Below are positions 34,953-64,000 of a stretch of DNA of 64,000 bases, one piece after another. Position numbers and translations under genes: made by a program. The notes beneath the pieces are model-generated. The model ran no database searches and had not been told where the DNA came from. It saw only the letters and a list, made by a program, of their open reading frames with translations. Location: assembly GCA_030142905.1 (NCBI GenBank), contig JASJOG010000257.1, positions 124,001 to 188,000 of the forward strand, given 5' to 3'. The DNA comes from Heliopora coerulea. Lineage: Eukaryota; Cnidaria; Anthozoa; Scleralcyonacea; Helioporidae. Position 1 is the first letter of the stretch. Each line of letters opens with the position of its first letter.

Positions 34953-35041
34953 ACAGGGATTTGAGGCGAGTTTTTATTCAACTTAAGTGCACGAGATATT
35001 CCCGCGACAACTTAAGGCTTATTCATCGGAGGATGTCCAAT

Positions 35042-35071: not shown

Positions 35072-35189
35072 AGATACATGAAGAGAAATTTTTACATGAT
35101 AATCGGACACTGCCGAAGTCAACTGAAAAATGTTGACTCGAGCGGGGTTTGAACTCGCACCTTCGGGATACCGGTCCGCCGCTCTACCT

Positions 35190-35400: not shown

Positions 35401-36188
35401 TCTCTCCAATTCTATACACTTCCCTAAACTTGTAAATACAAGTTATTCAACTGTTTTTCAATTTTTAGTTCAAGAATTATGCGTCATGATTTTCCCAATT
35501 ATCATTTCAAATCATAATTTTAAAACCAAAGCTTAAGAATAAGTTGGAAAACGTATCACCCTTGTATGCATGACTTTACTTTCGATTTCTAAAAACACTT
35601 CCTGTGGATGCACTAAAGTTACTTAGTTCGACTCATTCCAAGTATTCTACGAAATAATCAACCATGCCAAGGTTGCGGCATAAAATAACTGAACTTTAAA
35701 AAAGGATCGTAGCCAATATAAAGTGCACGTGTCCTTATAATTCGTTTATTAGAAGGACAAAGTTGGCACTCTCTTGCATTCCAGCGCAACTTCCCTTCAA
35801 TATGGGAAGAACGTCGGAACATCAGTCACCAACTGTCTTTCTCAAGACTATGCACTAACCTGGACGATCTACCTTTACTACTATATACCGATTCTCCAAA
35901 GTTCAAACCACTTACTTTAAAATCCACGATATTATCAAAGACGGCGAGTTTTTTGCTACTCATAATAACTATAGAATTCTCTATATAATATGTTTGAATC
36001 ATTTCACATCAATAGTCCCCTACCAGGTTCGCAGATCTCCTTCGCCAGTAAACAAAGATTTGAGAAGAAGCAATAGAGTGCTGAGTAAACCGTGAACTCT
36101 TGGTGAGATTTCTTGTGATGACAAAAGTGTTTACGGCACAAGCTCTGCATGTTTAATTAGATTTTGCAATCGAATATATTTTGAAATA
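35401..36188. other. Intergenic, no feature recognised
   Basis: AT-rich sequence with no coding or repeat pattern seen. Confidence 0.5.
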
Positions 36189-38245: not shown

Positions 38246-38311
38246 GACCGCTAACTTCGCCACTATTCTTTTCACCTTAGCCATCGCTGTACCTGTCGCT
38301 GTTCTCAAAAT
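38246..38311 (-). pseudogene. Dead copy of exon 2 of the secreted acidic gene
   Basis: Minus strand: a TGCTTTCAG acceptor at 38312-38320, then codons for DFENSDRYSDG followed by TAA (38277-38279), where the live copy has TTA. Homology fades shortly after. The matching exon 1 is absent from this arm, so the copy is a pseudogene. Confidence 0.8.
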
Positions 38312-40355: not shown

Positions 40356-40740
40356 AGAGTGCAGTTCAGCGGACGCACCTGGATGCTGACCAGTATATTG
40401 CCGATTCAATAGCCAAGTAAAGTGAGATATGGCGGCAACATTTTAGGAGACACAACCCAAGGAAAAATGAGTTTATTAAAAGTATTATATTGACATATAT
40501 TTAGCAAGGGTTAGGATTAGGGTTAGGGTTAGAATTGGTTGTAGAATAGTACTGTAAAGTTTCTTTATTTTTGGTGAATTGAGTGATATCTTCGTTGAAT
40601 AAGACTATTTTACGTTCGAAAGTGGTCACGGCTGCATTTTAATTTCCCGTGGAAAGTTCATAATATTTGCTGTTGAGCCGACTGAAAAGATCAGCGGCCA
40701 GGTGCATCCGTTAAACTACACCTGTACCACGCGTGGAATA
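40356..40740. repeat. Fold-back element with internal telomere-like repeats
   Basis: Inverted ends GTGCAGTTCAGCGGACGCACC / reverse GGTGCATCCGTTAAACTACAC enclose (TTAGGG)n-type repeats at 40506-40533. The same element is in the right arm at 49466-49848, with telomere-like repeats at 49657-49699, so it predates the duplication. Confidence 0.8.
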
Positions 40741-40909
40741 GAATCAGAGAGCGAAATAGAAACTGAGTGACTTTTCTTCTCAACGAAGGACCGACTAATT
40801 GCAACAACACATGAAAAATTCGGAAAGTCATTCGAAAGTAAAGATAAAATTGTTATTCATCCCCTCGCAATTCTCGAACGAAACTTTTCTTATTAAAAAT
40901 CATTAAAAT

Positions 40910-40913
40910 CTTT
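40910..40913. other. Deletion junction (CTTT microhomology) in left arm
   Basis: Left arm reads AAAATCTTTGCTTAG. The right arm, reverse-complemented, reads AAAATCTTTATTTAAG at one edge and AACGCTTTGCTTAG at the other, 1,977 bp apart. Shared CTTT at both edges indicates a microhomology-mediated deletion that removed exon 1. Confidence 0.8.
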
Positions 40914-41914
40914 GCTTAGATTAATCTGGTTTTGACAGATGACTGCCTTTTTAAGTATTCCCAGTAGCAAAAGCCCACACAAACCACGCCCTACGGAATA
41001 CAGCAGTGCATTTTTAGTATTGTTTGAAAGTTAATATGGAGACACATCTGTCAAAAATAACGAAACGAAAGGTCGATATATCAGAGAAATTTTTCTTGTT
41101 CTTCAGTTAGATTATGCAGGTAAAAATACTGACAGTCAAATGTCCCGCCGAAAAGACGAGAAAATATTTGTCTCAAAGGACAGACTACATGTTGCAATAA
41201 GTAGAGCAAAAATACTTCGCATTAAAATAAGACAAAAAGACTTTTTCATGACAGGGATGCGATATTAACAAAAAATTGTCACTCTGTCTTACCAAGCCTC
41301 CTAACCAGGTGTGCGAAAATTAGTAAATTTCATATAAACATTTCTCTTATTTCAAAATTATTCTAACAATGAACTCATAAAAAGTGAACCAAAAGCTAAA
41401 CGGTAAAAGAAAGGACTCAGGTTGAAAATAAAGTTTCGAGAGTCAAAATCATACATTTAAGACCCAGATGGTACAAGTTGCGAAAAATGTAACTTTTAGG
41501 CTTTGTTTGGTTGCGGGTCGAAACCGCGACCCCCCAGATCTAGTGCAGTACTCTGCCAACTGCACCACGAATCTCATTGCCGAGGGCACGGGCAAGGGTT
41601 CTGCATTCACGAGGATGGTAATGCTGATGAAAGTAAGGGTATATTCGAGGAGTATCACGCATTTACAGTAGATTATATGATTATCGTGAGATCGAATGTA
41701 GATTGTTAACGTTCATCGTTGAAAACATCTCATTGATAATACATATCTATTGTCGAGTGAAATTTATTTGTGCTGATCTTCTTACCACAGTAATACATCG
41801 ACATACATTCAATTCCAAAATCTTCGCGTTTCTCAAAATCTACCTCACAGAACGAGCGTTATAATCCGCAGTAAGTGTTACTGCTAGTTCTGCTAAAGTG
41901 CAGAACAGATTTGC

Positions 41915-43879
41915 CACTGGCGTAGCTACGAATTTCTTCAGGGGGGGGCGAAACTATAAATTTTCCGACAACTGGGCGTGGTCAAGTGGGCGTGGTCAAA
42001 GGAACGTGGTTAAAAGGTGTGGCTTTTAAAAACTGTGTACAGATGAGACATCATCAAGGAATGAACAAGAATATCTTTATTATATTTAATATTTACATCA
42101 GATGGCGATATATGTTCGCTATGAAAAGCCGGCTGCCATTTTCAAATCAACTAAGTGTGAAGAAATGGTAATATGCTAGTATATAAACATACAATTTCAG
42201 GTATTATCGAATAGGTAGATCGAGGTAGATCAAATGTTTCTATCGCTATTTCTCTTCAAATGTAATGTACTCAGACAGGCTACACACTGAACACAGAGTT
42301 TTAACTTTTAACGTTGAAAAACGTTTTATGTCACGTCCATGTGAATTAACACATTATTTAAAAATTCTTCTTGTTTTGTCGTTCAGGAACGGCATTTGGA
42401 GTTCTCGAATCGAAATATTCGAAACAATTTCACGATTGATAGAAATACAAGCGAGATTCGACAGGCGTTTTTCCGTCATGGTACTGCGCAAGTATGTTTT
42501 CACACGTTTTAAGCAACTGAAGGCTCTCTCGTCATGTGCTGATGAGACAGGAATTGTAAGTGCCAGTTGTAACAATGTTGCAATGCTTGCGAACTGGCCT
42601 GTCAAGTTGTGCGTCTCCAAAAACACCAAAAGATCTTCAGCATCACGGGGAACAGCTTCACCGTCCACTAAGTCCCACGCGTTTAGTAACGCGTGTACAT
42701 TCTTGTACTCCATGACGACTGTCTCCTTCGCAGGCAGGTCATTGTGGTAGAATGAGCACAATGTTTCCAGTTGCTCCAAACTGGATTCCTCTGGAACCTC
42801 CACATGCTTGTCAATGAAGGTGGTTGGGGAGATGCAGTCAAAGGCCTTCAGAACGCCAACCGTCGTATCATTGAAGCGCGTCTTCAAATCAGTGACGATT
42901 GTATCTAGAACGACATTGTATACGTCAATTCTAAATCTTTCTTGAGCATCAACAGCAGCTTCTTCAGCTTGGTCTGACTGTGGCTCATCGAAGAACCGCC
43001 GTCTTTGTCGCTGTCTTCTCGTTTCAAACTCAGCTGGGAGGTCAAGTGAACTGCAAAGTTCCCTTGCTTTCCTCAGTGTGGCATCAAAGTGGTCGTTGTT
43101 GGACCTCATGGTGGAAAATTGGCGGATACACGCTTCGATCAAGTGACACGATACCCCAATGTTCAGAAAAGGCCCCTGAACTTTATCAGTTGCCGCTTTC
43201 GTGATCACCAATATGTCAAACCAAAAGTGGAGAAGTACAAGGAACTCGAACTTCTTTAGGCCGTTCAGAAGGCCATTAGCATCGGACAGACAACTAACAT
43301 CGAGTTGACGCCACGATTCTAGGTCACTTTACTTACCTATATCTGTTTAACTTTTATTGATGAAATGTCACAAATGAGTTCGCAAACAGGATCGTGAACA
43401 GAATGAAACTGTACGTAGAACAAAGCTATAACTGTATAACACTCTATGATTCTAGTCAAACAACACAACAACTCAACAAGTGAAATACGAGATTTTACTC
43501 CGCAGCTAGTAAACAGCTGTCCATCGGAAATAATTAGTGACAGTTTATGGACAATATGGTCAACACCGACAACACGTGAAAGTTTTTTCGCAATTTGGTA
43601 AGCTGTTGCCCACTTATAGACCAGTGTAAAATATTTAGTGACAACATACAGCGCAGATGCCGCAGAAAAACGAAACAGACATTGTATTTGTATCATTTAC
43701 TATTTACTTTCTTGGTAAGAATGGTTCTAAAGTACAAATATATTATACGTGTGAATAATTAATTACTTTGCCAGTTCGCTTCAGAATTTCCGACAAGCTT
43801 CCAAATTTTCCGACAAACGGCACCCAAAACGTCCAGTGGGGGGCGGTCGCCCCCCTGTTCCCCTGTAGCTACGCCACTG
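41915..43879 (-). mobile_element. hAT transposon, internally reduced
   Basis: Ends CACTGGCGTAGCTACG and, inverted, CAGTGGCGTAGCTACAGG, each followed by a G-rich run. Contains the C-terminal part of a hAT transposase. Flanks (AGATTTGC / TAATTTAC) do not form a clean 8-bp duplication, consistent with rearrangement at the arm boundary after insertion. Confidence 0.85.
42354..43330 (-). pseudogene. hAT transposase C-terminal region (ZMYM1-like)
   Basis: The open frame continues above the ATG at 43211 up to about 43330 (ESWRQLDV..GLLNGLKKFE). Landmarks: HLIEACIRQFSTMRSNNDHF, LPAEFETRRQRQRRRFFDEP, and the dimerisation end LLQLALTIPVSSAHDERAFS..LKRVKTYLRSTM..RLSNLACISIN of hAT/TTF-ZMYM1-like transposases. 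The N-terminal zinc finger and first catalytic residues are absent, so it is not functional alone. Confidence 0.88.
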
Positions 43880-46253: not shown

Positions 46254-47244
46254 GCAAATCTGTTCTGCACTTTAGCAGAACTAGCAGTAACACTTACTGC
46301 GGATTATAACGCTCGTTCTGTGAGGTAGATTTTGAGAAACGCGAAGATTTTGGAATTGAATGTATGTCGATGTATTACTGTGGTAAGAAGATCAGCACAA
46401 ATAAATTTCACTCGACAATAGATATGTATTATCAATGAGATGTTTTCAACGATGAACGTTAACAATCTACATTCGATCTCACGATAATCATATAATCTAC
46501 TGTAAATGCGTGATACTCCTCGAATATACCCTTACTTTCATCAGCATTACCATCCTCGTGAATGCAGAACCCTTGCCCGTGCCCTCGGCAATGAGATTCG
46601 TGGTGCAGTTGGCAGAGTACTGCACTAGATCTGGGGGGTCGCGGTTTCGACCCGCAACCAAACAAAGCCTAAAAGTTACATTTTTCGCAACTTGTACCAT
46701 CTGGGTCTTAAATGTATGACTTTGACTCTCGAAACTTTATTTTCAACCTGAGTCCTTTCTTTTACCGTTTAGCTTTTGGTTCACTTTTTATGAGTTCATT
46801 GTTAGAATAATTTTGAAATAAGAGAAATGTTTATATGAAATTTACTAATTTTCGCACACCTAGTTAGGAGGCTTGGTGAGATAGAGTGACAATTTTTTGT
46901 TAATATCGCATCCCTGTCATGAAAAAGTCTTTTTGTCTTATTTTAATGCGAAGTATTTTTGCTCTACTTATTGCAACGTGTAGTCTGTCCTTTGAGACAA
47001 ATATTTTCTCGTCTTTTTGGCGAGAGATTTAACTGTCAGTATTTTTGCTTGCATAATCTAACTGAAGAACAAGAAGAATTTCTCTGATATATCGACCTTT
47101 CGTTTCGTTATTTTTGACAGATGTGTCTCCATATTAACTTTCAAACAATACTAAAAATGCACTGCTGTATTTCGTATATCAAAATGTCATTCAAAAGTGG
47201 CCTTTGTAGGAATCGGTAGGGCGTGGTTTGTGTGGGCTTTTGCC

Positions 47245-47315
47245 ACTGGGAATACTTAAAAAGGCAGTCATCTGTCAAAACCAGATCAATCTAAGCAAAG
47301 CGTTCATTGTTGAAC
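47245..47315 (+). promoter_or_regulatory. Likely core promoter of the secreted acidic gene
   Basis: TACTTAAAAAGGC (about 47250-47262) is TATA-like and lies ~55-65 bp upstream of the ATG, leaving a short 5' UTR. The same block is kept in the left arm near 40950. Confidence 0.4.
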
Positions 47316-47415
47316 ATGGAGGCCAAGAAAACTCTGCTAATTCTTGTTCTTTTCGTTTCCCTATGTGATGAAACACAGGAAAGCCCAATGAACGGATTTC
47401 TAATCCGAGATGTTG
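47316..47415 (+). CDS. Acidic gene exon 1: signal peptide
   Basis: 33 codons plus one base; hydrophobic core [11 protein letters not shown], then a polar DETQESP start of the mature chain; donor GTATGT. ATG is the first after the promoter-like block. Confidence 0.75.
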
Positions 47416-50400
47416 GTATGTATTTTATTATCTTTTTTCAGTGACTCATTCTGATATTTGGAATGCACTGTGATTACAAACCCCATTTTTGTGCACTTCT
47501 TCATACTTTACAATAATTTTGTCCTTATCCGAATGTTTACACGTCACATAGCTTAAAGTCTATCTAGCTGATCATAAGCCGTACTTTTTCACTGTTCATG
47601 GACGCAACGAGTGCTTTATAATGAATTCATGCAGCCAAACAGTCATCTGCTTTCACGTTTAAGCGAAACTTTCTGTGTACAGGCAAATTTAGAGGATACG
47701 ATTATCGCATATGGTTATTCGTCCAGATGCAATTTCCGTCTGAAGGGAAGAATTACTGGTTACAGTTATTTCGTAAATTTTGCCATGCGTCCGTAAGACT
47801 TCGTAAGTGGCTCGTATATCAAGACGAACAATTGCATGCTACGATTGTCTCGTTTAAAATGAACGAGTGAATTAGCTTAAGGGCTGAAAAACACTGTGCA
47901 GTCGGTGTGGTCGCGCGACCACGGCGACCTGTTGAGTGTGCGCACTGGTCACGCGACTAATGAAAACACATTGACCTCGACCTTATGAGCGCGACTAAAC
48001 CAAAATGGCTGCGATACAACGAACATGAGTTGTTGCAATAGCAACAATAATTACAAAAGCGACGGAACCGCCGCGGCGCTTTTTTTCATTGCTGCGTTTT
48101 ATATTTTTTTTCAGTTGTTGAAGCACTCACTGATTTTTCTTCGTGTTACTGCTTTTGTGAGTCATCGGTGATTTTTTAAAACCTCCCACCGCTAGTCATT
48201 GATTTTCCTTACCGCTTTTGTGAGTCATTGTCCGTTTTGTTAAGCAAATTGAACTGTGCTGTTTATTGACTAGAATGTTTCAGTTATAACTTATTATCTG
48301 ATATCAAATGCTTAACCTGTCAGACAATGCATGTTGTTATCTCTTGCATTAAATCATTAAAATAAACCAGACCTCGCTGTTGTAATGCTGTTATATTTGT
48401 TAGCTAGGCCTCGTGCTACTGGCCGCGGCACATAAGAACTGTTTCCGTAACCTCTCAATTAGTGAACATGAGAACAGCGAGCGAAACAAGGAAGGAAGTA
48501 AAAGGTGGTGCGTTTGTCAGATCAACAGACAAAGAACAGGGCGATTTTTCTCAGCTCTTCATTTCATATTGTATTTCTTGTCCGTAGCATAGTTAAGCCA
48601 TTTTAGTTCGGGGGCTGTCCAGCTTAATTTGACCGAATATTGTATCCTTTAACAAATTGCCCGAATTTAATTTGTCGCGCATTCAGGCCATGTATGGTGC
48701 AGCCTCGCTCTTTCAGCCTAATTCGTAAATTAAATATAAACCAGCAATCAAGAGGGATTTTGTCCTACCTTACCAAACCAAATTTTGCCCGAATTATTAT
48801 CTAGCTTCGCCTGAATTTTCTGTTTTTTGACAAACTAAGTAGAGGTGTCACACCCGCGCCATAAACTACGCCCCTGTATTTCTGTGCATATTGTATTTTT
48901 ATAATATATTAAAAATCATTAATAATTCATGAGGAAAGTACAAAGGAAAATCATAACCATGTCGTGTCTTTATATGTGATAAAAAGACGCCCACTTTTCT
49001 CTTCCAATTTTCTCGGCTTTGAAAACACAAATCTTAAAACTTTCTTCGCGAATTTGCGTATTAAGGGGTTTGTTTTTTAAGCCGTTCAAAAAACTCACAG
49101 TACGTGCTTTATCGGATCAAAAACACTTGGCTATCGCCTCGCGTCTTATATCCGATAAAGCAATCCTGCTCGGTTTTTAAACATTACTTAGCAATAATTT
49201 AATTTGTATATATCTGCATTGTACGGGTTGTAGGAAGAGCACATTTTAAGTGATCGTGACTCCGTGCTTAAATAAAGATTTTAATGATTTTTAATAAGAA
49301 AAGTTTAGTTCGAGAATTGCGAGGGGATGAATAACAATTTTATCTTTACTTTCGAATGACTTTCCGAATTTTTCATGGGTTGTTGCAATTAGTCGGTCCT
49401 TCGTTGAGAAGAAAAGTCACTCAGTTTCTATTTCGCTCTCTGATTCTATTCCACGCGTGGTACAAGTGCAGTTTAGCGGATGCACCTGGCCGCTGATCTT
49501 TTCAGTCGGCTCAACAGCAAATATTATGAACTTTCCACGGGAAATTAAAATGCAGCCGTGACCACATTCGAACATGAAATGGTCTTATTCAACGAAGATA
49601 TCACTCAATTCACCAAAAATAAAGAAACTTTACAGTACTATTCTACAACCAATTCTAACCCTAACCCTAATCCTAACCCTAATTCTAACCCTAACCCTTA
49701 CTAAATACATGTCAATATAATATTTTTAATAAACTCATTTTTCCTTGGGTTGTGTCTCCTAAAATGTTCCCACCAAATCTCACTTTACTTGGCTATTGAA
49801 TCGGCAATATACTGGTCAACATCCTGGTACGTCCGCTGAACTGCACTCTAGCCCCACGCGTTAAGCTTGGCTCATTCGTTTTCATAATTTTTGTCCTTCA
49901 GGTCGTGTAATATTGTATAATTTCTAGACAAGTTTATGTAAGAGTTCAAGCCGACGTTCGAGGGCTTTAACTAACTTATTTCATGATAAGATGCATTTTC
50001 TAACAAAAGGATTTCATTTGGGACAACATGTTTTTGACATGTGAATGTATAAACATTGGACTGAAATAAAATGGTTGATTGGCATTTAACAAAAGGTTAA
50101 TGTATTTCCTAAAAGGATTTTACAAGTAGTGATTTTTAATATCAATGCAGTTTTTTTACTGGAGGGCGTCTTACAAGTGATCAGAGTTATTTGTATTTGG
50201 TCGAGTCGCAAGTAAGTAGGCTATGAATTAAAAAGTTTATCACGTCATGTTTTCGGACCCAAATATTCGCTCTGAATTTCTTTGAAATGAAAGAACTTTT
50301 TGCTGATATTGCAAACGACGAATCAATTAAAGAAAGGAAAAGATGACAATTTGTCAATAAAGAATTTCAAAGATGAGAGAAACATTTCATTTGTGACGGA

Positions 50401-53400
50401 CGAAGAGCTGGAGAAATGGAAGGCGTTGAGGATTACTGCAAATACTAAGATCATGTCTGCTTGGGGAGTTCGTTGTTGGGCTGAATTGGCAGGCGTATGT
50501 AATGTGAAATCTAAATCCGTTAAAGAATAGTTTACCGATCGATATGGGAAGAAGCGCTTTCAGTGAGATTAAGAAATCTTATCAAACTTATAATATTAAG
50601 AGGAAATTCCCGTTGTTTTTGAGAAGTGTACATTTTTGGTTTCGAAGGATTTTCACGTATTTTCAGAAGGAAAATGTCGAAGTTGTTAGAGTTGGTGTAT
50701 GTAACGTTAAAATCTTAAATTGTGTGCAGAGGAATTATACATTTAGTCAAAGTAAGTTTAGTAAATTAAATAAGGTTTCGAATTATAAATTCAAGGGATG
50801 TATATGATTTCCTAGGGATGTATACATATACATCCCTGGGAAGCTCAGCATACATCCCTTGAATTTATAATACAACATTATACTTAATTCATCAGCCCCA
50901 TTGTTCCCTGCTGAATATCAAATTCCCTCCCCGGGCTATCAGTCACTCGATTGTTTGACGAGTATGTAAGCTAAATAAAGGATCATGAATAACAAAGAAA
51001 ATGCCGTCAGTTATTAAATAATAACCATTTGCCTCCAACTGCGCCTATGAGCGCGAGTTAATGAATGCAGATTCGATGCATGAATAAATTTCAAAAAGGA
51101 TTTTGAATAGATTGAATAATTTATAATTTCTTTTAAAAAGCTCAGGAGTGAAAGGGTTAAAGCATCCCCAAAACACACCATTATGCTGTTTGCTCTCGAA
51201 TATGAACGCGCTGTTTCGAGCAAATTAGCCGAACCTCAGCCAATGAGCCTGAAGCGACTGAAACGACCAAGCCCAAAAGTCCAACATGTCAAACTATCAA
51301 AGCGACCAAGGGACTAAGAGGGCTGATTTCATGGGAAAATTTCTGCCCGGCAGGCCGTTCCCGATGAAAAAATGAAAAAAGTCCCGATTACATGAAATAT
51401 CTTAACCCGGGCAGAAACTGAAACTGGAAGTGAACCCAGGTAGGAATTTGTCGGTAGGCTATGTTGTTTTGGCAATTTGCATCTTCCCACGTCTGTCAAC
51501 ATCTTTTCGACCCGAGTTAAAATTTTTTCGCGCGATTACGTGGGATTTTTCTGCCTGGGTAGCTCAAACCTGGCTGAAACTTTCTTCATGTAACTGCGGG
51601 CTCCGTTTTTCAAGTATTTTATCGGAATGCCGGGCTGAAATTCTCCATGAAATCAACCCTTAACATGGCAACCCGCTCAAAGCAGTCGCTCTGGTCGCTC
51701 GATCACGGCGACTGCACAATGTGTTTCAGCCTTAATATTGATTAAAATCCCAACGACATTACGGGATTTTTTTTTAATTCCCCTATCCGACGGTGCAAAG
51801 TGCCATTATTTAGACTGAAGAATCCCGGGCGAGGGGTGAAACTCGGTGGCAGGGAATTTCTGTGCATACGCGCTTTAAAACATGAACTCTGGCCGAGAAG
51901 AGTAGGGATAGGTTTGTATAATTATACACACCACGTCCCTCAACCTGAGATCTTTGGAAGTTGCTATGGGTTTAAAAATGCTAACACGTCAAAAGGTGGT
52001 TAGTAACTGGAGCACATTTTTAAATACTTTTAGGTAGAGTTCTTGTTAGTTAAAACTTGACGTATATAAGCGTGCATAAACTATTTTTTATACTGTTAAG
52101 CCCCTTGAACAATGAATACTGCGTTTTGGGTTTCGACACTTAGGAATCGATATTAGGGAGTTTAAGCAAACACTACGGCAATGTCTGTGCGGACGTATTC
52201 TTACAATAGAAATAGCCATTCAAAACAAAAGAACTGAATAACTTGTAGTCCCTGGTGTATTTTCAACACCGTTCCACTTCTACACAGTGCGTAGTCGAGA
52301 ACATTTCCACGGTTCCACGACCTCGTTGACATAATATATAGAACATTTCAGATCTTATAAATGTAAACATATTGACCAGAGGTGCTGAGAAGAGTTTCAG
52401 AGACGTAACCAACATTCACAATTCATTACAACGTTAGTAGAATGTTATTCTATTCCACTGCGTAAGTTAAGCTACTTTGTGAAATGCTGTCGCCGTACTA
52501 GCTTGCTTAAACTCCCCATTATTTGGATGCGACAACTTTGGGTGAAGCAACTACCTGAAATATACGAAAAGAAACTTCGACGTTTCGAGAGAAGGCCCTT
52601 CATCGGGCCGACGAAGGGCCTTTGCTCGAAACGTCGAAGTTTCTTTTCGTATATTTCAGGTAGATGCTTCACCCAAAGTTATCGCATCCTGTTATCCTCG
52701 ACTACCTGCACTGGCACCCATTGCTCAAGATTTTATCCCCGTTATTTGGCCTGGGCTCACCAATAAGACATTTTATCGACAAGCATTTAATCGATAGCTC
52801 GATTCAGCAACGAAATGTTGGTCCAGAACCCTTTTCATTTGCAAGTGAAGATTTGGTTGCGGGTGAATGCATGTACTTGTTCACTGGATTGGTTTAGATT
52901 AGATATGTTTTAGACTAGATCAGATTCGTTGAGAACAGAGCAGTTGTTTGAAAGGAGGACTCATTTCGTTTATGGAGCGGAAGGACAACGCATGCATTTG
53001 TCTGACTAAGAGTTTTAAAACAGTTTAAGAAAAGAGCGAGCCAACGAGCCAACTTCTTTGAAGCGAAAGGACAACCTATGCTATAGTCTGACAAAGAGAT
53101 TTCAAAAAGCTCTAGTAAACTAAAAGAGCCAGGCAATCAAGGGACTTTATATGTAGGAAATTTTAGCTGAAATTGTTATCGGCCAACCAACTCATTTTAT
53201 CTTTGTCTGCTTTCAGATTTTGAGAACAACGACAGGTACAGCGATGGCTTAGGTGAAATGAAGGTCGTTAACACGAATGAAAGTACGTTCCTCAAATAGA
53301 ATATCTGTATTTTTCTGTTGAGTTTATAGACAATAGTGTTTGACCAGGAACTAAAATACTCGTACAATCCATGATGAAGAACATTCGAGATTCGATTGGC

Positions 53401-56400
53401 GAATAATTTGTCGTACGACGTGCTTACCAGTAATATATCGACAAATAAGGTGACGATTTGCACCTTTTTCACCCTTGCTGAAGTAAAAGGCGATTTTCAA
53501 TAATATTATCTAACACTCATTAACAATACGTGAGCAAAACACAAAGGAAGTCAGTACCGAGACGTAGTTTCGTACCTGATTTTAATTAGTATAGAATTTC
53601 GTCAATTTTAAACCCGATTTTCTCTTTAAATACGGATTCGTTTGACATGTAGTACTCTACACTCGAAAGTCGTGTTTCATGAGATATCCAAACACCTCGA
53701 AATTGTTTAAAAAAAAAACTCGGCTATCGCCTCGTTTCTCAACCCACTTCTTGGTATTTGTTTGTTTCAATGGCTTTTATAAAAATACTATGCTGGGCTT
53801 TCATATTTATACTCCGATGAGTACAAGTGGTTTATTACTTGAAAAACGTTATATGACTACCGTTTGCGGGCCTGTCACTTTATTCATATCATTTTAAATC
53901 AGTTATTTGCGTATACCACTGCTGTAGCTTTATCTGTATTTATTGATAAATGTAAGTCAAATTTATTTCCTTACGAAAATTTCACGTTATTTCGCATGTG
54001 AAAAACATATGGAATTGGAACATTTTCGCTTATAAAATTTTCATTTCACATATGAAATGGGAACATTTTTACATATGAAGTACCTAAACCAAATGTGAAA
54101 GGAACTGGTTCAATATTCCACATATAAAATCTTTGGATATGAAATGTCTATTCTACGCATGAAAAGGAAGATTCCCGTACGAAAATTAATTTCACAAATA
54201 AAATTTTCATTTTACTTATGGAATTGGAACAATTCACTTATGAAATATTATTTTCACATGTTAAGTTGAATGTTAAATTTTCGTAAAGGGACAGCGAGTA
54301 CATTCTCTCATTTCCTTTTTTGCATTAGACTTGGTTCCCTCCCAGCATGCGTATTTATATTGTCTGTGCAACGAATAGTACATTGGGCTCGAAGATATAG
54401 GTTTGGTTCTTTCATGTAGGGTATATCTCTCTCGTTCGTTCCGCTCACTCAAGAGATATCGTTCTTAATTTCCAGTCAGTGGCGTGAGTGAGAGAGGGCC
54501 TGAGGGACCTGTGCCCCCCAAATTTTATTGAACTGTTATAATTATCGCCTGAAATATCACACAGACACCTTAGACTGCATCGATTCAGTATCTACATGGG
54601 GACGTGATGTTCAAAATTTAACCAGTAGGTTTACTCACCGGGCCAAAATTCGCTTTAGCCGTGTTTTCAGGAGTTCTTCCCAAGAATCTAGGTCTAGCCA
54701 CGTTACTGTTGCCAATCAAGCATTATAGCCATATCTTGAATGATAGATAAACGTTCGTCAAGCTCTTGCTTCAGAAAAACGATTTCTGAGCCCCAGACAG
54801 GAATCGAACCCGCAACCTTCTGATGACCGGTGAGACGCTCTAACCATTGAGCTACCAAGACTCAGATGGCGAGTTAAGGTGCAAGTTCGACGAATGTGCG
54901 GCCTAAGGAGCAGCCATCATATGTTAATAACGTTATTGATGTGATATAACATTATGTATATAACATATGTGGCTGCCGCTTAGGTCGCACATGTGTCCAA
55001 CTTGCACCTTTGCTCGCCATCTGACTCTTTGGTAGCTCAATGCTTAGAGCCTCTCACCAGTCATCAGAAGGTTGCAGGTTCGATTCCCGTCTGGGGCTCA
55101 GAAATCGTCTTGCTGAGGTAAAAGCTTGACGAACGTTCACCTGTCATTCATTCACGAAGAGAAATTCAGATAGATGAATGATCTTCAAGCTCTGTACTCA
55201 GAAAATGATTTCTGAGCCCCAGACGGGGATCGAACCCGCAACCTTCTGATGACCGGTGAGAAGACCATATTTAAGTTGCTCTTAAAATGCAGAAAATGCC
55301 ATTTCAGAGACCTAAGAATTGAAAACGTCCTGTGGGCAAAGTCTCCGCTCCTAGAAGGCCTGCGCTTCACGCCCGGCTGTCATCCCCGGTAAATTCATGG
55401 CTATATGCCTGTGCCCATCCAAAAGCAATGGGCTGGCTACGCCAGTGAATTATACGGGTTATTATCGAAAATCATCTATCATTCAAGATATCTCCAGGCT
55501 AGCTCCCACATTTCCAACATATATATATCGCATAGCCATATTTTCTTTTTACTGTATTTATCCTATGCTTTTTTATTTTGATCTTTAGATTCGAATGACG
55601 GTGATGATGACGTTGACAACGCCGAGAGTGACAGTTTCAATGAAGGCGACAAAAGTACGAAAGATTTGCCACCGCTGATTTAATTACTCATAATCTGACT
55701 TCTACTTTGATTACGAGTTTTGAGTGATTACCGTTAGTAACTGATTGAAACTTGAGGGGTTTTTTTTAAGTGAGGATAAGACATGATAGAAACGACAGTG
55801 GGTTACTGATAAAATATTCAAAGCTTTTGATTTATAATTCTAATTATAATGTCATGAACAACTATTTTTTCAGGTCCTGCCGTGACCAATGAAAGTGACG
55901 ATGTCTGGGACGACCTCATTGATGATTTCAGCGAAGACGAGAAGGATAATGAGGAAGAAGGTTTGTTCTGAATCTGAAACTTATTGTTATTAGCTCCCTA
56001 TTGTCAAGAACCCAAAACTGAAGATTTTTGTGAAACCTGAAGATTTTTTAAGTTTCAGCAATTTCAGGGAAAAATTTCATGATTAACAAAACCGTTGCAG
56101 CCTGGTCGCATGACGTGAGGAAGGTTAATAATTGGCCTAACTCAGCTTGCCTTGGGCAAAGTTTAAAGCTTCGACCACACTGCGCAATGATCACGATAAA
56201 AAAAATCATTCGCCTATAAAATGTCTCTTAGCGGTCACACTACATCGATAACGATAAAATTATCGTTGAACGACAACGGTTTTAAAATCGCCCACCTGAA
56301 CGATTTTTTTTGGGCCGCACGATAACGATAGGTTTTTAGCCAATCAAAACTCTGGTTTGAAACATGTTCAGAACACGTTTCTTTCCTGACGAAGGGCCTT

Positions 56401-59400
56401 TGGTCGAAACGGTGATATTCTTTGAGATCAGTTACAGCTGTTATCAACCTTTTAACTTTTTACCTTAGTTATCACTGTCTACGTAGTAATCTACTGTTAT
56501 ATCAATTATGGCAGTTATCAACCTTTTAACTTTTTACTTTATTTATCACTGTCTGCGTAGTAATCTACTGTTATATCAATTATGGCAGTTATCAACCTTT
56601 TAACTTTTTACCTTATTTATCACTGTCTACGTAGTAATCTACTGTTATATCAATTATGGCAGTTATCAACCTTTTAACTTTTTACCTCATTTATCACTGT
56701 CTACGTAGTAATCTACTGTTATATCAATTATGGCAGTTATCAACCTTTTAACTTTTTACCTTATTTATCACTGTCTACGTAGTAATCTACTGTTATATCA
56801 ATTATGGCAGTTATCAACCTTTTAACTTTTTACCTTACTTATCACTGTCTACGTAGTAATCTACTGTTATATCAATTACGGCAGTTATCAACCTTTTAAC
56901 TTTTTACTTTATTTATCACTGTCTACGCAGTATTCTATTCTTATATACTTAAGAATTATCCTGTATTTTCTATTAGTTTCAATACCAAGTTATTTCGAAG
57001 GGGAAGTAAAATTTTCAGAGACAAAGTTACTCCGTATACCCAGAATATGACTTCTGGGTGTTCGTACAAAGCTTTCATTTAATAAATTATTAGGTCTATG
57101 TTTTTAACAAATCAATTGTTGGTTATCGTTTTAGATTCAGACGTAAATGACAATCGTGACGACGTGAATCGCATCGAAAAAGATTACAAAGACGAAGACA
57201 TGGATTTTGGTAAGGGATACGGTTATTAGAGCTTTGGTTGTACCACTTTTTCCACGAACCAGTTTATTTTTTTTTTTCGGGGGAGGGTATTACTGTCGCT
57301 CAGTACGCATGTTGTCAAAAATCAAAAGTACGTCTTGAGTACTAGCTCTCACTTTAAAACTTATTATAAAACCGTATTTATACCAGTGAACTCGATTTCC
57401 ATATCTGGAATGCTAACTCCCAGTCATTTGGCCGAGCAAAAAGTGAAGCCAAGATGGCCGCCCATGGAGGTAATTTTTGTACGTCAGTTTCAGTCCTCTT
57501 CGCGGAAGGGGGGACTGTGTAGGGGACCAGAACTGACGTACAAAATTGCCGTCCATGGGCGGCCATCTTGGCTTCACATTTCATTGCCCAGTTAGCATTC
57601 CAGATAGAAGGATCGAGTTCACTGGTTTATACAGCCTGATGCAAACACGAGGAGAGGCTGGGAGAACTCTCAAGCGACTGTGTAGACCTCGACCTTCAGT
57701 CTCGGGCGTACACAGCAGCTTTCAAGGTCAGCCAAACTCCTCGTGTTTGCACCCGGCTATATGAACACGACAAAACTGTTTTTATTTCTTAAATAGTGTA
57801 CACTTTGATTCGAGAATGAGGTGTGAACATCGAATCGATAGTTTCTAGGGTTATGTTGTGGGCAGGGGGGAACTTAGAAACTCGTGACTTCCGCGTTCTA
57901 AAATTACTTGCGATAACCCCGTGTCAACTTGAAAAGTTGAATAGAGCGGGATTTGAACTCGCATCTTCGGGTTTGCCGGACCACTGCTCTACCAATTGCA
58001 CTATCGCGTCAATTGGGAACAGTATGCTCGTTTTATCCAATTTAAGTGCACGAGAGATTCTCGCGACAACTTAGTGCTAGATAACCGTGACGATGTGCAG
58101 TGTTTCGACTCTATGTCATTCAATTTTTTCTGATTCTGAAATATAGTCGAAACACTGTACATCCTCACGGATATCGAGTGTTAAGTTGTCGCGACAATCT
58201 CTCACGCCCTTAAATTGGATAAAACGAGCATACTGTTCCAGTTGACTTGATAGCTCAATTGGTAGAGCAGTGGTCCGGTAACCTGAAGATACGAGTTCGA
58301 ATCTCGTTCTAGTCAACTTTTCTAGTCGACTTCTAGTTGACTTTAACAGTGTAGGTCAATTCCTGAAATATTCTGTTCACAGTACCCTGAGGATGATTCT
58401 GAAATAACCCCGTGTTGTGGGTCACTTTTTGTTTCAACACTGCTGGACGTCATCTATGCATCAGTGACTGAAGACATAGAATAAAATCTAGAGGATAAAA
58501 CAAATACCGAAAAATTATAATTTTATACTTGTTCGATTCGAAAACGACTTTGTAATTAAGTCGAGATATTACCGTAATCACGTCCACGTCTTGTTATCAA
58601 CTCAAGTCTTGGGTTCTCAAGATGTCAGTATTTTTCGGAATTTGTTTTATCCTCTGTTTTATGAAATTTTCTGCTAGCACTGGATTTTAGAGTGGAATTT
58701 GTCACTTTTAACATACAGTGCTTTGAATATAGTGAGCTATGGAGTTCAACTTGTTTGGTAGAGTTGATCAAGGCAAGAGAAGTACAGTACTTTCGAAGTT
58801 TGTTTGAAATAATACCTGCGTTCCTAGTCCTGAAAGCAGTCTTTGATTTCATCGATCAGTCCTATCGAAAAATATCAAATTCCCGTTTTTATAAATCCGA
58901 TTTCTTTTTTTCATGTGTTGAAAAAAATGTGATGTAGAGGTAACAAAATCTTTGACACACCTACTCTTTTTCAAGAGGACTCCATCAGAATAAAAATGCC
59001 CCAGCCCTCCCCAAGCTGGGACAGGATATAGATTCAGACGTAGACATCGATATAGACGTAGACCTAGACGTAGAAGTAGACGTAAGCCTAGACGTATACG
59101 TACACGTACACGTAGATATAGACATAATCGTAGACGTAGACAGATCACCCGTGCGGTGGCCGGGTTTAGAATAGCACCGAGGTATCCCTGCCTGTCGTAA
59201 GAGGCGACTAAAAGGGTTGGCGTCAGGAAGGACATCCGGCCGTAAAAACCTCAGTCCCAAATATGAAGGTTTCTGATCGGAAAAATACTTATGCTACGGC
59301 GTACACGGTAATCGACGCTCAGGGACAAACCCCGAACCCTGTGAAAAGTAAGCAAGGGGTAACGCAGCAACCAAAACTGGAAAAAACGGTTAAAGAAGCA

Positions 59401-62400
59401 AGTGGAAAATCTGAGAATAGGAAACTGGAATGTAGGATCAATGACTGGGAGAGGACGAGAAATTGTAGATGTGATGGAGAGGAGGAAGGTAGAGATTCTC
59501 TGCGTGCAGGAAACAAAGTGGAAGGGGAATACGGCCCGTCAACTAGGAAATGGATATAAATTACTCTACTCAGGATACGACACGAAGACTAATGGGGTAG
59601 GAATAATACTGAGTAAGAAAATGACGGAAAAAGTGGTTGAAATTGATCGATACTCGGACAGGATAATGAGGGTGAAATTAACAGTGGGAAAAGAATTATG
59701 GAATGTGATATCTGCGTATGCACCTCAGGTTGGGAGGCCATGGGAGGAGAAAGAGTCTTTTGTGGAAGAGCTAGAACATATGATAAGGAAGATACCTGGA
59801 AATGAAACGTTAATAATTGGCGGAGATCTTAACACACACTTAGGAGAGCGGAATGCGAATTATAGAGAGGAACATGGACAACATGGGTATGGTACTAGTA
59901 ATGAGGAAGGGGAACTGTGGCTGGAGATGATGGAAGCGAACCAAATCTATGCAATTAATACCGGTTTCAAGAAGAGGAGAGAGCATCTTATAACTTATAA
60001 GAGCGGGATTAATGCCACGCAAGTTGATTACATCTTGGTACGGCAAGAGGACAGGAGCAAAGTGAGGAACGCAAAAGTATTGCCCTACGAAGCAGTAACA
60101 AAACAACATAGGCTGCTGGTTGGAGACATTTCAGTTAATGTAGAGAAGACGAGGATAAAAGTAAAGAGAGCTTCTAAGACCAAAGTATGGAAGTTGAAGA
60201 CACGTGCAGAAGAATATAATGAGAATATTAAAGAGCGATGCTTAATGGAAATATGGGAAGGTCAAACAGGGGATGAGATGTGGGAAAAAATATGTAGAGT
60301 ATTGTATGAGGAGGCGGAAAAAGTTTGTGGAAAATCAAAGGGCGGACGCCCAAGGAAAAAGGAAACGTGATGGTGGGAAAATGAGGTGCAGATGGCTATA
60401 AGAGAGATGAAGAAAGCGTACAAAGCACTAGGGGATGGTTTAGCATATCAAGATGAGTATAAAAAGTGGAAGAAAGAAGCAAAACGTGCTGTGGCAAGAG
60501 CAAAAGAGAGAGCATGGAAAGACTGGTATGATAAACTGGAGACGAAAGAAGGAGGGGATAAGATCTATAAAATAGCTAAACAGAGAGGTAAACAGAAGAA
60601 AGACATAGAACAGATGACAGCAGTGACAGACAAAGAAGGAAGAATCCTCACTGGGGAGAAAGAAGTAAAGGATAGATGGAAAGAGTATTTTGAAGAGTTG
60701 CTAAACATAGAAAATGGAAGAGACGACCTAGAAGAGAATGAAATAGTCCATGGTCCAGTAGAGGAGATCTCCGTAGCAGAAGTGAAGAAAGCGGTTGAGA
60801 GCCTGAAGAACGATAAAGCTGCAAGACCTACTGGGATAACCGCGGAGCATTTTAAATACCTAGATATGGAGGGAATTGGATGGATAACAATGTTGCTTAA
60901 TAAAATTATGGAGGTGGAAACAGTTCCTGTGGCTTGGACTAGGAGTTATTTGATTAAGATTTATAAAGACAAAGGTGATCCGTTACAATGCAAGAATTTC
61001 AGAGGAATAAAGTTGCTTGAGGTGGGACTTAAGGTGCTAGAGAAGGTTCTGGATGGAAGATTAAGAAAAACAGTGAAGATAGGTGTTGCTCAGTTTGGTT
61101 TCCAACCAGAAAAGAGGACAATAGATGCAATGTTTATCTTGAGACAACTACAAGAGAAAGTTCTAGAAAAGAGGGAGAAACTGTTTGTGGCATTCTTAGA
61201 TTTGGAAAAGGCTTATGACCGAGTACCCAGGGAAGTTGTCTACTGGTGTATGAGGAAAAGAGGAATACCGGAAAAATTAGTGAGAATAGTTAAAGCAACA
61301 TATGAGAAGGTGACAACAAGGGTGAGAATGCCCTTTGGCGATACAGAAGAGTTTGAGATCAAAGTTGGCCTGCATCAAGGGTCAGCTCTGAGCCCTTTTC
61401 TTTTTATCTTGGTATTGGATACACTTACGGGCATATTGAGACTGCTATACCTTAGGAGTTACTTTTTGCTGACGATATTGCATTGATTGGGAGAACGAAA
61501 GAGGAATTACAGGGAAAGATCTTGAATTGGCAAAACGAACCGAAAAGGGGAGATTTGAAGATGAGTGTAGAGAAGTCAGAAATCCTGGTGATGGAAAGAA
61601 ATCAAGGAGCAGTTGTTAGGATAGTGGACATTAACGATAAGGAGTTAGTACAGGTGGAGGATTTCAAGTACCTGGGGTCAGTGCTGGAAGTAGGAGGAGG
61701 CTCGTGGAAAGCAGTGAAGCAGAGAGTAAAGGTAACGTGGATGAAATGGAGGGAAATATCAGGGGTCACTTGCGATAAGAAGATGCCACGGAAGTTAAAA
61801 TGCAAAATTTACCGGACAGTAATAAGACCGGTGCTGTTATACGGAGCGGAATGCTGGACAATGAGGAAAAAAGAAGAGAATTTGCTGAAAAGAACGGAGA
61901 TGCGAATGTTGAGATGGATTCTGGGAGTGTCGTTAGAAGATAAGATAAGAAATGATGAAATCAGAAGAAGATGTGGTGTGGTATGCATTGCAGAGAAGGT
62001 TAAAGAAGCAAGGTTAAGATGGTATGGACATGTATTAAGGAGAAGCGAAGAAGAGCCAATTAGAAGTATTACGGAACTAAACATAGAGGGAAACAGAGGA
62101 CGGGGGAGACCTAAGAAGAGATGGTCAGATTGTGTGAAAGAAGATTTGAATGAGAAAGGACTAACATCAGATATGACGAGGGACAGAAGCTATTGGAGAA
62201 CCAGAATCCGAGCAGCCGACCCTGGGACAGTCTGGGACTAGGGCTGTGTAAAAGAAGAAGAAGAAGAAGAAGAAGTAGACGTAGACAGATACAGACGTAG
62301 ATATAGTTGTAGACGTAAACCTAAACCTAGACCTAGACCTAGACCTAGACCTAGACGCAGGCACAGATGGAGTGACAGACGTAGACGTAGACGTAGACAT

Positions 62401-63237
62401 GCGCTAAGATGTAGATTCAGAGATTGGTGTTGACGTAGACGTAGAATTAGACATAAACGTTGGAACAGACGTAGATAAAAACGTTTACAAAGACATAAAG
62501 AATGACACGCGCGTTGACGTAGGCGTAGATAACGATCTGGCTGCAAGTGCAGCAGCAGAAGTGTACAAGTGAACTTATAAATATGATTTTACTCACATCG
62601 TTTTCTCTTTAGTTGTAGATGATGGCGACGACAGTACAAAATCAGCGTCTGATTTGATTTACAAGGCAAATGCGAGTAAGTTTACGAACATAACGCTTAA
62701 AACATACACCAGCAGAAAGGCGTATTTTTTATTGATACTTTATGTATTATATAATTAGTTAAATACAGTGACGTACCCTGTGGGGGGCCAGGAAAACCTG
62801 CCCCCCCCCCCCTCTCCATAATCATTCCAAGTCCGTCGGTACATCCGAGTAAACCGTCGGTACATCACTGGAGAAATAGCAAAGGAATACTCTTCCCTCT
62901 TTATTGTCCAGTAACAAACTTTTTATACGAAATTCCTTGTAACTACTAAAAAGATTTCGACGATTTCTACTTGAGTTTTTCGAGTTACTTACTGATTTAC
63001 CTCAACAACATGAATTATTAAAGTTGTTGTTTTGTTTTTATCCTAATATTCTCTCGCTTTTGTCGCAATATTTTTGTATCAACTGTAGACAGCAATTTGA
63101 AAAAAAAGGAAGAGAAAAGAAAATGGTACATGAATACAATCCGTGTAACAAGTCTACGTCACCACTGTGTCCATGAAGTTAATGGACACAGAAGTGACGA
63201 AGACTACAAGAACATGTTTTACATAGTTTGTCGGTAA
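47316..63237 (+). CDS. Secreted Asp/Glu-rich protein, multi-exon, novel
   Basis: Exons: 47316-47415, 53217-53282, 55589-55654, 55874-55960, 57135-57209, 62613-62675 and a candidate last exon 63089-63237. Every intron is phase 1 with AG acceptors and GT donors, and the spliced frame is open: 201 codons plus TAA if the last exon is right. Exon 1 is a signal peptide ([20 protein letters not shown]). Exons 2-6 encode 20-29-residue acidic modules, e.g. [20 protein letters not shown] and [20 protein letters not shown]. The end is basic (KKKEEKRK) followed by a short segment with two Cys. It is inferred to be secreted; acidic modules could bind Ca2+ or mineral, or act as a propeptide. No family recognised. 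Symmetric exons permit duplication or skipping without frameshift. Further exons between 57.2 and 62.6 kb or beyond the window are possible. Confidence 0.72.
47416..49277 (+). other. Intron 1 of acidic gene, part unique to the right arm
   Basis: Holds a GTGCAGTCGGTGTGGTCGCG segment (47895-47935) related to one near 39570, and a dispersed repeat copy at 48900-49190. No other gene. Confidence 0.55.
49935..51018. mobile_element. ~1.08-kb block present only in the right arm
   Basis: Absent from the left arm at ~40268. Contains a short frame at 50300-50530 ([20 protein letters not shown]) of unknown family and a hairpin at 50786-50868 (TTATAAATTCAAGGGATGTA / inverse). Ends are not clearly repeated, so insertion versus left-arm deletion is open. 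Confidence 0.45.
52527..52736 (+). mobile_element. 210-bp hairpin retroposon, second copy
   Basis: Same family as 16883-17094. Flanked by CCCCATTATTTGG (52514-52526) and CCCCGTTATTTGG (52737-52749). The left arm has the uninterrupted single site near 38770, proving a recent insertion after the duplication. Confidence 0.88.
53217..53282 (+). CDS. Acidic gene exon 2
   Basis: 66 nt, phase 1-1; acceptor TGCTTTCAG, donor [26 protein letters not shown]. Conserved with the inverted dead copy at 38246-38311. Confidence 0.75.
53500..54470 (+). other. Acidic gene intron 2, AT-rich
   Basis: No gene. 53950-54290 is rich in short TTCACATATGAAAT-type palindromic words (loose, self-similar repeat). A degenerate copy of the dispersed repeat lies at about 53510-53740. 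Confidence 0.5.
54477..55447. mobile_element. Probable hAT-type element carrying a tRNA-like palindrome
   Basis: Starts CAGTGGCGTGAGTGAG and ends with inverse-type GGGCTGGCTACGCCAGTG. Interior has CCTGTGCCCCCCAAA and GCCTGTGCCCATCC near the two ends, typical of degraded hAT termini. No matching 8-bp duplication found. Confidence 0.45.
54780..55110. repeat. Palindromic pair of tRNA-like modules
   Basis: Minus-strand module ~54785-54863 (TAGCTCAATGGTTAGAGCG, GCGGGTTCGATTCC) is mirrored by a plus-strand module ~55018-55100, with the flanking AAGTTGGACACATGTGCG-like text also mirrored around ~54950. A third, truncated minus copy starts at 55212. Anticodon stems are poor; these are repeat relics. 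Confidence 0.75.
55589..55654 (+). CDS. Acidic gene exon 3
   Basis: 66 nt, phase 1-1; acceptor ATCTTTAG after a pyrimidine-rich stretch, donor [26 protein letters not shown]. Confidence 0.75.
55874..55960 (+). CDS. Acidic gene exon 4
   Basis: 87 nt, phase 1-1; acceptor TTTTTTCAG, donor [26 protein letters not shown], the most acidic module. Confidence 0.75.
56386..56411 (+). ncRNA. Hammerhead-like core upstream of minisatellite
   Basis: CTGACGA, helix II GGCC/GGTC (one G-U pair) with a TTT loop, then GAAAC. Fits CUGANGA-helix II-GAAA. Leads directly into the 74-bp tandem array. Confidence 0.45.
56440..56950. repeat. 74-bp minisatellite, about seven copies
   Basis: GTTATCAACCTTTTAAC starts units at 56440, 56514, 56588, 56662, 56736, 56810 and 56884, an exact 74-bp period with very few differences. 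Each unit holds the palindrome CTACGTAG. A single related unit lies at ~25696. Located in intron 4 of the acidic gene. Confidence 0.95.
57135..57209 (+). CDS. Acidic gene exon 5
   Basis: 75 nt, phase 1-1; acceptor CGTTTTAG, donor [26 protein letters not shown]. Its start ATTCAGACGTA recurs at the start of the (GTAGAC)n tract at 59031. Confidence 0.75.
57380..57630. repeat. 250-bp fold-back element in intron 5
   Basis: ACCAGTGAACTCGAT...GGAATGCTAACT...GCCAAGATGGCCGCCCATGG inverted around a short loop. Each arm holds AAGATGGCCGCC, resembling YY1-type sites. Confidence 0.88.
57935..58345. repeat. Inverted pair of tRNA-like/hammerhead-family repeats
   Basis: tRNA-like modules at 57936-58013 (-) and 58242-58317 (+; TAGCTCAATTGGTAGAGC, ACGAGTTCGAATCTCG, acceptor TTGACT/AGTCAA), with AAGTTGTCGCGA spacers and GTCGAAACACTG between them, as in the 34.9-35.4-kb copies. 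CTGAGGATGATTCTGAAAT recurs at 58386. The anticodon stem is degenerate. Confidence 0.72.
59019..59145 (+). repeat. (GTAGAC)n tract, left part, exon-5-like start
   Basis: ATATAG/ATTCAGACGTAGAC at 59025-59044 copies the acceptor edge and first codons of exon 5. It then reads as alternating Asp-Val/Ile/Leu codons up to the LINE insertion. Either an expanded duplicate of exon 5 or a microsatellite with coincidental coding. Confidence 0.55.
59146..62274 (+). mobile_element. Near-full-length RTE-type LINE with 16-bp target duplication
   Basis: GTAGACGTAGACAGAT flanks both sides (59130-59145, 62275-62290). The 5' UTR holds TGCCTGTCGTAAGAGGCGAC; the 3' end is a short (AAG)n tail. Encodes apurinic-type endonuclease and reverse transcriptase in one frame. 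Target-primed retroposition into a hexanucleotide repeat. Confidence 0.92.
59363..62241 (+). pseudogene. LINE endonuclease-reverse transcriptase, three lesions
   Basis: Endonuclease: [48 protein letters not shown]. Reverse transcriptase: [68 protein letters not shown] (catalytic ADD kept). C-terminus: [20 protein letters not shown] and [20 protein letters not shown], typical of RTE-type elements. Lesions: TGA at 60368, a one-base-type frameshift near 61440, and TAG at 61453 just before ELLFADD. Few lesions imply a young copy. The true start is unclear (open from 59363). Confidence 0.9.
62275..62546 (+). repeat. (GTAGAC)n tract, right part, with a cryptic acidic exon
   Basis: Continues the hexanucleotide tract after the LINE. 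From GTAG/ATTCAGAG at 62415 one frame runs 132 nt, phase 1-1, to a weak GTGCAG donor at 62547, encoding acidic [20 protein letters not shown] sequence. No pyrimidine tract at the acceptor and a TAA just upstream, so only a candidate exon. Confidence 0.4.
62613..62675 (+). CDS. Acidic gene exon 6
   Basis: 63 nt, phase 1-1; acceptor TTCTCTTTAG, donor [26 protein letters not shown]. Confidence 0.72.
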
Positions 63238-63293
63238 ATCTTCAATTATATCCCCCCGCCTCCCCCAACACCACGGACCTCGTTACGCCACTG
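62766..63293. mobile_element. hAT-type non-autonomous element containing the candidate last exon
   Basis: Ends CAGTGACGTACC and, inverted, CAGTGGCGTAACGAGG. Flanks GTTAAATA (62758-62765) and TTTAAATA (63294-63301) match at 7 of 8 bases. G/C runs near both ends. Interior hairpin at about 63158-63203. Confidence 0.75.
63089..63237 (+). CDS. Candidate terminal exon of acidic gene, inside a hAT element
   Basis: Acceptor GTATCAACTGTAG; the phase fits exon 6, and the frame runs 49 codons to TAA. Encodes [10 protein letters not shown] (dibasic KR site) and a segment with two Cys, ending YIVCR. The exon sits wholly inside the hAT-type element 62766-63293 and overlaps a hairpin (GTGTCCAT..ATGGACAC). 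It may be an exonised transposon or a false exon. Confidence 0.4.
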
Positions 63294-64000
63294 TTTAAAT
63301 AACGAGCAGGAATGCTTTATCGGATTTAAAACACTAAGCGATTGCCCACTGTTGCAAATCATACAAAACACGTGTTGCGAGTTTTTGAATTACTTCAATT
63401 AAAAAATACCAAACGGATTCCCGTGTTTGGATACTGTGATGCAAATACGTGGCAGGAAATTTTCCGTGTTTGGATTATTGAACTCTAAAAAGACTGAAAC
63501 GATACCTGGAAACTGAATTATGAAGCCAACATGGCGGCTGACTTCTAGGTCAATTTGCAGGTCATTTCAGTCCCTTACGCGATAAAACACGCAACCTATT
63601 ACGAAAAACTTTACCTAAATTTCAGAGTTTTTGACAGTTTCCTTTTTATTCCGTAGTAAGTAGAGGACAATGTCGGTAGGACTGCATATTTGTCAGAATT
63701 AACTGTCAATGAAAAATAAAGGTTCCATGCAATTTTTTCACATTCGTGTTTTTGACCTACATGGCTGCCCCCATTTCGGCTTCATTCAGTCGTAAGGCCT
63801 GGTACGACGAGATATTGTCCTAGTCTTTTTAGAGTTCAATGGTTTGGATATTCTAATCCAAACACGGGTATTAACCAGTCAGAGCTCGCAAACAAGTCAC
63901 GTTATTTTATAAGCATAAACTCCTTAACACGCTAATTCGCGAAGAAAGTTTTAAGATAGTTTTCTAAGCCGAAAAAATTTCAGGAGAAAAGTAAGCATGT
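63294..64000. other. Downstream region, repeat-like
   Basis: Contains dispersed-repeat text (GCTTTATCGGAT at 63315) and inverted GTGTTTGGAT / ATCCAAACAC words (63424-63865). AATAAA occurs at 63715. No further exon could be supported. Confidence 0.5.

Follow-up and report, generated by a model that had tools for sequence, protein, structure and literature searches.

Acidic mini-exons at the locus

The window analysed here is a stretch of 64,000 nucleotides (C176:124001-188000 of the host genome, which comprises 430 Mb in 769 contigs). It carries on its forward strand six short exons, E1 to E6, listed in Table 1 together with the features discussed below; exons lying beyond its right end are numbered by continuing the window numbering. 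The sequence-only reading had described a signal-type exon followed by five exons of 66, 66, 87, 75 and 63 nt, phase 1 throughout and in one open frame, and this arrangement is confirmed at the positions given in the table. Specifically, E1-E6 are bordered by AG and GT, all junctions are phase 1 and the spliced product reads as a single open frame. In a first-stage model, in which E1-E6 were joined to an exon ending at 63237, the open frame extends to 201 aa, again with phase 1 at every junction. When sites were scored with a generic splice matrix, none of the six donors of this model ranked below the 87th percentile of the GT sites of the window, and none of its six acceptors below the 84th percentile of the AG sites.

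A simple hydrophobicity scan of positions 40000-64000 gave two signal-type start exons ending in phase 1, of which E1, encoding a putative signal peptide, is the stronger. Upstream of the E1 start codon lies ACTTAAAAAG, which resembles a TATA box. Across E2-E6, 45 of the 119 residues are Asp or Glu.

The significance of this composition was assessed through an acidic-exon scan employing generic splice matrices, thresholds set at the weakest observed scores and a D/E content of at least 25%, and covering both strands of positions 1-63237 of the 64,000. E3-E6 emerged as the sole phase-1 acidic candidates on either strand, forming four loci within a 15.9-kb stretch. E2, at 24% D/E, lies below the cut. 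In the other phases, the scan returned one phase-0 cluster at 59016-59150, made of GTAGAC simple repeats beside the LINE, and a single phase-2 match at 12278. When the same count was made on 400 order-3 Markov sequences of equal length, the phase-1 number was 0 in 388 of them and 1 in the remaining 12, while the maximum over the three phases was 2, seen once. Over its six exons this is a real multi-exon gene, which the sequence-only reading recognised correctly.

Exon duplication among E2-E6 was considered and rejected, most of the ten pairs compared not rising above shuffles. The exceptions were E3-E5 at the protein level (p 0.04) and, at the DNA level, E3-E4 (p 0), E3-E6 (p 0.02) and E3-E5 (p 0.03), values which derive from 300 shuffles each, are uncorrected for the ten pairs and possibly reflect composition. 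In addition, neither the 201-aa model nor its C-terminal part found a relative among 5.8 billion proteins at word-sharing sensitivity, and Pfam held no family for the 201-aa model (best E=3).

Table 1. Features of the locus and of three paralogous astacin loci; pro-region and enzyme labels follow the preferred reading given in the text
Feature	Position	Strand	Description
TATA-like box	47254..47263	+	ACTTAAAAAG; ends 53 nt before start codon; read from sequence
E1	47316..47415	+	start codon, hydrophobic signal-type stretch, first pro-region residues; ends phase 1
E2	53217..53282	+	pro-region mini-exon, 66 nt, phase 1-1
E3	55589..55654	+	acidic pro-region mini-exon, 66 nt, phase 1-1
E4	55874..55960	+	acidic pro-region mini-exon, 87 nt, phase 1-1
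E5	57135..57209	+	acidic pro-region mini-exon, 75 nt, phase 1-1; in-frame alternative acceptor at 57141
LINE-type endonuclease/reverse-transcriptase ORFs	59402..62241	+	in E5-E6 intron, outside gene product
E6	62613..62675	+	acidic pro-region mini-exon, 63 nt, phase 1-1; final coding exon of the gene within the window
Transposon-like repeat, 528-bp	62766..63293		intron after E6; ends CAGTGACGTA / TACGCCACTG
A7	64852-65034 (C176:188852-189034)	+	aspartate-switch-like motif FEEDI, polybasic site KRAARKR, predicted mature enzyme start
A8	67957-68068	+	N-terminal astacin exon
A9	71981-72159	+	astacin exon (PF01400 match C176:195979-196164)
A10	73740-73850	+	astacin exon (PF01400 match C176:197736-197855)
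A11	from 77472	+	last astacin exon
C30 signal to switch exon	508543 to 509709		candidate exons
C457 signal to switch exon	898173 to 903207		candidate exons
C9 signal to switch exon	923228 to 924398		candidate exons

The repeat containing the exon that ends at 63237

The terminal exon of the first-stage model, 63089..63237 (+), was rejected, since it is a hairpin-containing stretch of the 528-bp repeat. A genome search with the 201-aa model, in which 150 of 263 candidates were scored, returned the gene's own E1, E4 and terminal exon and at least 147 other places, all of them matched over terminal-exon residues; paralogues of E1-E6 may exist elsewhere in the genome. When the 19 best-scoring other copies were compared, homology crossed both exon borders in 18 of them; one copy (L017) aligns exactly to 62766-63293 with 82.7% identity, and another (L012) to 62764-63293. 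The interval 62766-63293 is firmly a repeat. Nine of the 19 copies are members of a second, distinct repeat family, whose similarity to the element is confined to its right part (63078-63294) and which has a common left flank of its own (83-98% identity in the pairs listed).

The repeat has inverted ends (CAGTGACGTA/CAGTGGCGTA), and the window copy is flanked by GTTAAATA and TTTAAATA, 8 bp long and equal at 7 of 8 positions. We provisionally class it as a hAT-type MITE, an assignment based on general end and flank rules: shared with that class are the CAGTG-type ends, the 8-bp flank repeat of the window copy (7/8) and the presence of many copies. Against this class, a simple test found 8-bp flank repeats in none of the 19 other copies, and nine of those copies fall in the second family.

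The exon could nevertheless be read as the end of a separate secreted acidic protein, with a basic two-cysteine C-terminal peptide following KKKEEKR and released as a small cationic peptide. Consistent with such a product, 48 codons are open up to the stop, the charge turns basic, an acceptor AG is present and 11 of the 19 best copies are free of in-frame stops; in addition, the fraction of synonymous changes in codons with a single difference is 0.25, slightly above the 0.17 expected and in the sense of constraint, an excess which we attribute to the copies having been chosen by protein similarity. Against this stand the location of the exon in a repeat matched so widely and beyond both exon borders, the in-frame stops in 8 of the 19 copies and indel differences in 15, the about equal mismatches per codon position across the 19 (0.089, 0.120 and 0.110), and an acceptor (-0.41) that is the weakest in the 201-aa model. 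We consider this reading highly improbable. A cationic or antimicrobial peptide precursor was likewise dropped, its last exon being repeat and not evidently constrained among copies. The exon also holds a 55-nt palindrome, matched by none of 2000 codon shuffles, with 2.2% of the 149-nt tiles of the window scoring as high. The terminal-exon peptide had no confirmed homologue in viral contigs and no PDB match.

The repeat could also contribute as an exonised segment, with the astacin described below as the main product and a minor truncated transcript for a free acidic secreted peptide. A usable acceptor and a stop are available inside the repeat, and an AATAAA lies at 63715, but the frame is not consistently preserved across repeat copies, and we hold this combination to be quite improbable. 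As a separate observation, an ORF for a hAT transposase C-terminal dimerisation domain, at 42354-43211 on the minus strand, is a possible relative of the mobiliser of the repeat.

Astacin exons beyond the window and a proposed acidic pro-region

Beyond the right end of the window, the same contig carries exons of an astacin metalloprotease (A7 to A11), the first of which, A7, is a phase-1 exon 2.2 kb past E6. Joining E1-E6 to these exons gives a frame without a stop from E1 through the whole astacin domain, with exons in order, on the same strand and contig, and with compatible phases (1 at E6-A7 and A7-A8, 2 at A8-A9 and 1 at the later junctions). A11 ends either at a TAA, yielding a 385-aa protein, or through an in-frame phase-1 GTAAGT donor at 77580. 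In the assembled protein, PF01400 covers residues 198-383 and profile positions 2-189 of 189 (E=6.9e-62), which corresponds to a complete catalytic domain. After splicing, residues 280-291 hold the HEXXHXXGXXH zinc-binding motif as HELMHALGFWHE, the Met-turn SXMHY is present as SVMHY at 335-339, and the four conserved cysteines of the astacin catalytic domain as C230, C252, C272 and a Cys in the last exon. The switch-like motif in A7 reads FEEDI against FXGDI, with F, D and I retained and G replaced by E. Sequence matches in the PDB (n=17) comprise astacins, meprins, tolloid-like/BMP1, hatching-type and related metallopeptidases. Lastly, candidate MAM exons lie 3' of the astacin domain. Joined provisionally, they match MAM above the cut-off (E=6.6e-15); two of the pieces taken singly score 17.4 and 24.2 bits, under the 26.4-bit cut-off.

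These data argue that E1-E6 form the 5' coding part of the gene for a secreted metalloprotease of the astacin family (M12A) that also carries MAM modules, a reading to which we assign a probability of about 0.85. The splicing of E6 to A7 on which it depends is deduced from the genomic arrangement. Upstream of A7 its frame stays open as far as 64590 and contains no ATG, so that A7 must be entered by splicing. In the hydrophobicity scan for signal-type start exons, the interval from 62601 to A7 yielded none ending in phase 1. The phase match and the structure of the paralogues described below favour one gene. The weakest point of the one-gene reading is the A7 acceptor, an in-frame AG after a long pyrimidine-rich stretch, whose score is low (-3.92); an exon scan of the contig with an acceptor cut of -2.5 missed A7. 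The departure of FEEDI from FXGDI, the lack of any relative of the 201-aa model at the sensitivity given above, the merely candidate status of the paralogues' signal exons and the C512 locus described below also count against it.

The inferred junction and this weak acceptor would also suit a gene for an independent acidic matrix or Ca2+-binding protein, of which E1-E6 would be the detected part and the terminal exon would have been missed, the astacin then having its own undetected first exon. However, besides the lack of a phase-1 signal-type start exon from E6 to A7 in that scan, the seven listed phase-1 terminal alternatives for E6 that lie between 62725 and the end of the window (acceptor > -1.5, at least 15 aa) are either repeat (62792 and 63089) or runs of 23-47 aa, and the phase match and the paralogues speak for one gene. 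We regard the independent gene as improbable.

In the preferred reading, that of an astacin gene, the sequence-only reading is therefore amended at its 3' end: the gene end proposed at 63237 is given up, its exon lying within the repeat and a better continuation, from A7 onward, lying outside the window. With it goes the support for an undescribed secreted acidic protein with a C-terminus of its own, as the terminal exon offered is repeat, and nothing was found in support of a skeletal-matrix role. The propeptide option raised at the same time fits, since the acidic exons precede a switch-like and cleavage exon and a full astacin domain on the same contig and strand and in the same phase. In place of an undescribed acidic matrix protein, the gene thus represents a known enzyme family in variant form. 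The case shows how an ordinary protease pro-region can come to look like a new acidic protein through the combined effect of a window edge and a repeated element.

With meprin-like astacin and MAM proteins (PF01400) the predicted product shares the full catalytic domain, the zinc site and the Met-turn and, as far as predicted, a signal-type start, a pro-region and downstream MAM exons. It differs from them by FEEDI instead of FXGDI and by five additional acidic mini-exons of phase 1, which encode 119 aa and separate the signal exon from the switch exon. Coral secreted acidic matrix proteins, e.g. those of the SAARP and SAP types, are likewise secreted and have an Asp/Glu-rich stretch, whereas the acidic stretch found here precedes a protease domain. 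As regards the family at large, PMC9848320 describes astacins as secreted, with pro-regions of 34 to 486 residues, and FXGDI as common to animal astacin pro-regions, its aspartate replacing the zinc-bound water. Cnidarian astacins are reported in Wnt processing (PMC8191133) and in nematocysts (PMC3627010). An acidic or aspartic acid-rich astacin propeptide was not found in the open literature searched, from which we do not claim its absence from print.

A PF01400 search of the genome gave 98 matches, and the regions upstream of four paralogous loci (C30, C457, C9 and C512) were scanned. Three of the four (C30, C457 and C9) follow the same splice logic: they have an EGDI-type switch exon in phase 1 and, ahead of it, a candidate signal exon that also ends in phase 1. 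The signal exons are candidates from a simple hydrophobicity scan, which listed other start candidates at each of these loci too (rows: C30, 2; C457, 5; C9, 5). None of these three showed an acidic phase-1 exon between the candidate signal and switch exons; in C30, acidic candidates appeared further downstream, at 514493 (part of a catalytic exon), 516082-516333 and 521077. At C512 the scan gave no switch exon, and no acidic exon either. The three short-pro paralogues (C30:514321, C457:906223 and C9:929090) resemble the E1-E6 gene in having a switch exon in phase 1 and similar pieces of the catalytic exons, and differ from it in the stretch between the candidate signal exon and the switch exon, where no acidic phase-1 exon was found in any of the three. 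The acidic mini-exons apparently occupy what is a single phase-1 intron in the three relatives; such a position would explain the symmetry of all of them.

As to how such a zymogen might work, the pro-region as cut (177 residues) has a net charge of -40, and the catalytic domain (190 residues) one of +10, with a pI of 9.4. The charge matching is suggestive only, because the paralogue catalytic exons vary, with mixed charges exon by exon. We propose that E1 would encode the signal peptide and E2-E6 a long acidic pro-region, probably disordered; A7 would supply the switch-like FEEDI motif, the KRAARKR site and the mature start, with A8-A11 completing the catalytic domain and the MAM exons following. 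The enzyme would be secreted as a latent zymogen, in which the FEEDI aspartate may occupy the active-site zinc and the acidic tail (-40) may shield or chaperone the basic catalytic domain (+10), until a cut after RKR would remove the FEEDI segment together with the tail and yield the active enzyme. The tail would thereby contribute to latency electrostatically, as a removable latch or an intramolecular chaperone.

A different use of the tail within the same astacin gene would be mainly that of a decoy substrate or a Ca2+-binding storage tail, rather than a latch. The acidic composition of E2-E6 is compatible with it, and proteases of the astacin family reportedly prefer substrates with acidic residues at the prime-side positions, which we count in its favour. 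This alternative concerns the mechanism only, its odds not being additive with those of the other readings, and we give it a minority but real chance. Returning to the latch, we advance only tentatively, and as an unlikely proposal, that an ancestral phase-1 intron between the astacin signal and switch exons gained five symmetric acidic mini-exons, forming an exon-modular electrostatic latch. If true, any subset of these phase 1-1 exons could be skipped with the frame kept, and splicing could tune the strength or the place of the zymogen hold. If spliced as predicted, the gene would offer a clean test case for symmetric exon gain altering zymogen latency, because the same genome has paralogues apparently without acidic exons.

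Other duplicated and repeated sequences in the window

The interval 38266-41914 is an inverted partial copy of pieces of 46254-53262, taking in the upstream region of the gene, stretches of intron 1 and 46 nt of the 66-nt exon E2. It is without E1, shows AAAG microhomology at the junction and carries a stop in E2; because E1 is absent and E2 is interrupted, it is uninformative on conservation. Identity reaches 99.3% in its middle tract, 38765-40270, against 90.6-94.6% in the other pieces, a difference that suggests gene conversion. An insertion at 52527-52735, flanked by CCCCATTATTTGG/CCCCGTTATTTGG, is absent from the inverted copy, and a related palindromic element lies at 16885-17099.

Palindromic elements with tRNA-like sequences were found at 54737-55150 (tRNA-Thr call at 54788-54861) and at 57923-58330 (Rfam tRNA at 58244-58315), with similar tRNA-bearing repeats at 34829-35403. 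A tandem array at 56427-56946 has a period of about 74 bp, shifted copies being 88-96% identical, and a diverged unit of it lies at 25681-25766. Finally, an intact 222-aa ORF with WD40 repeats is located at 16141-16809 on the + strand, and its best other relatives, both unnamed, are 85% and 83% identical.
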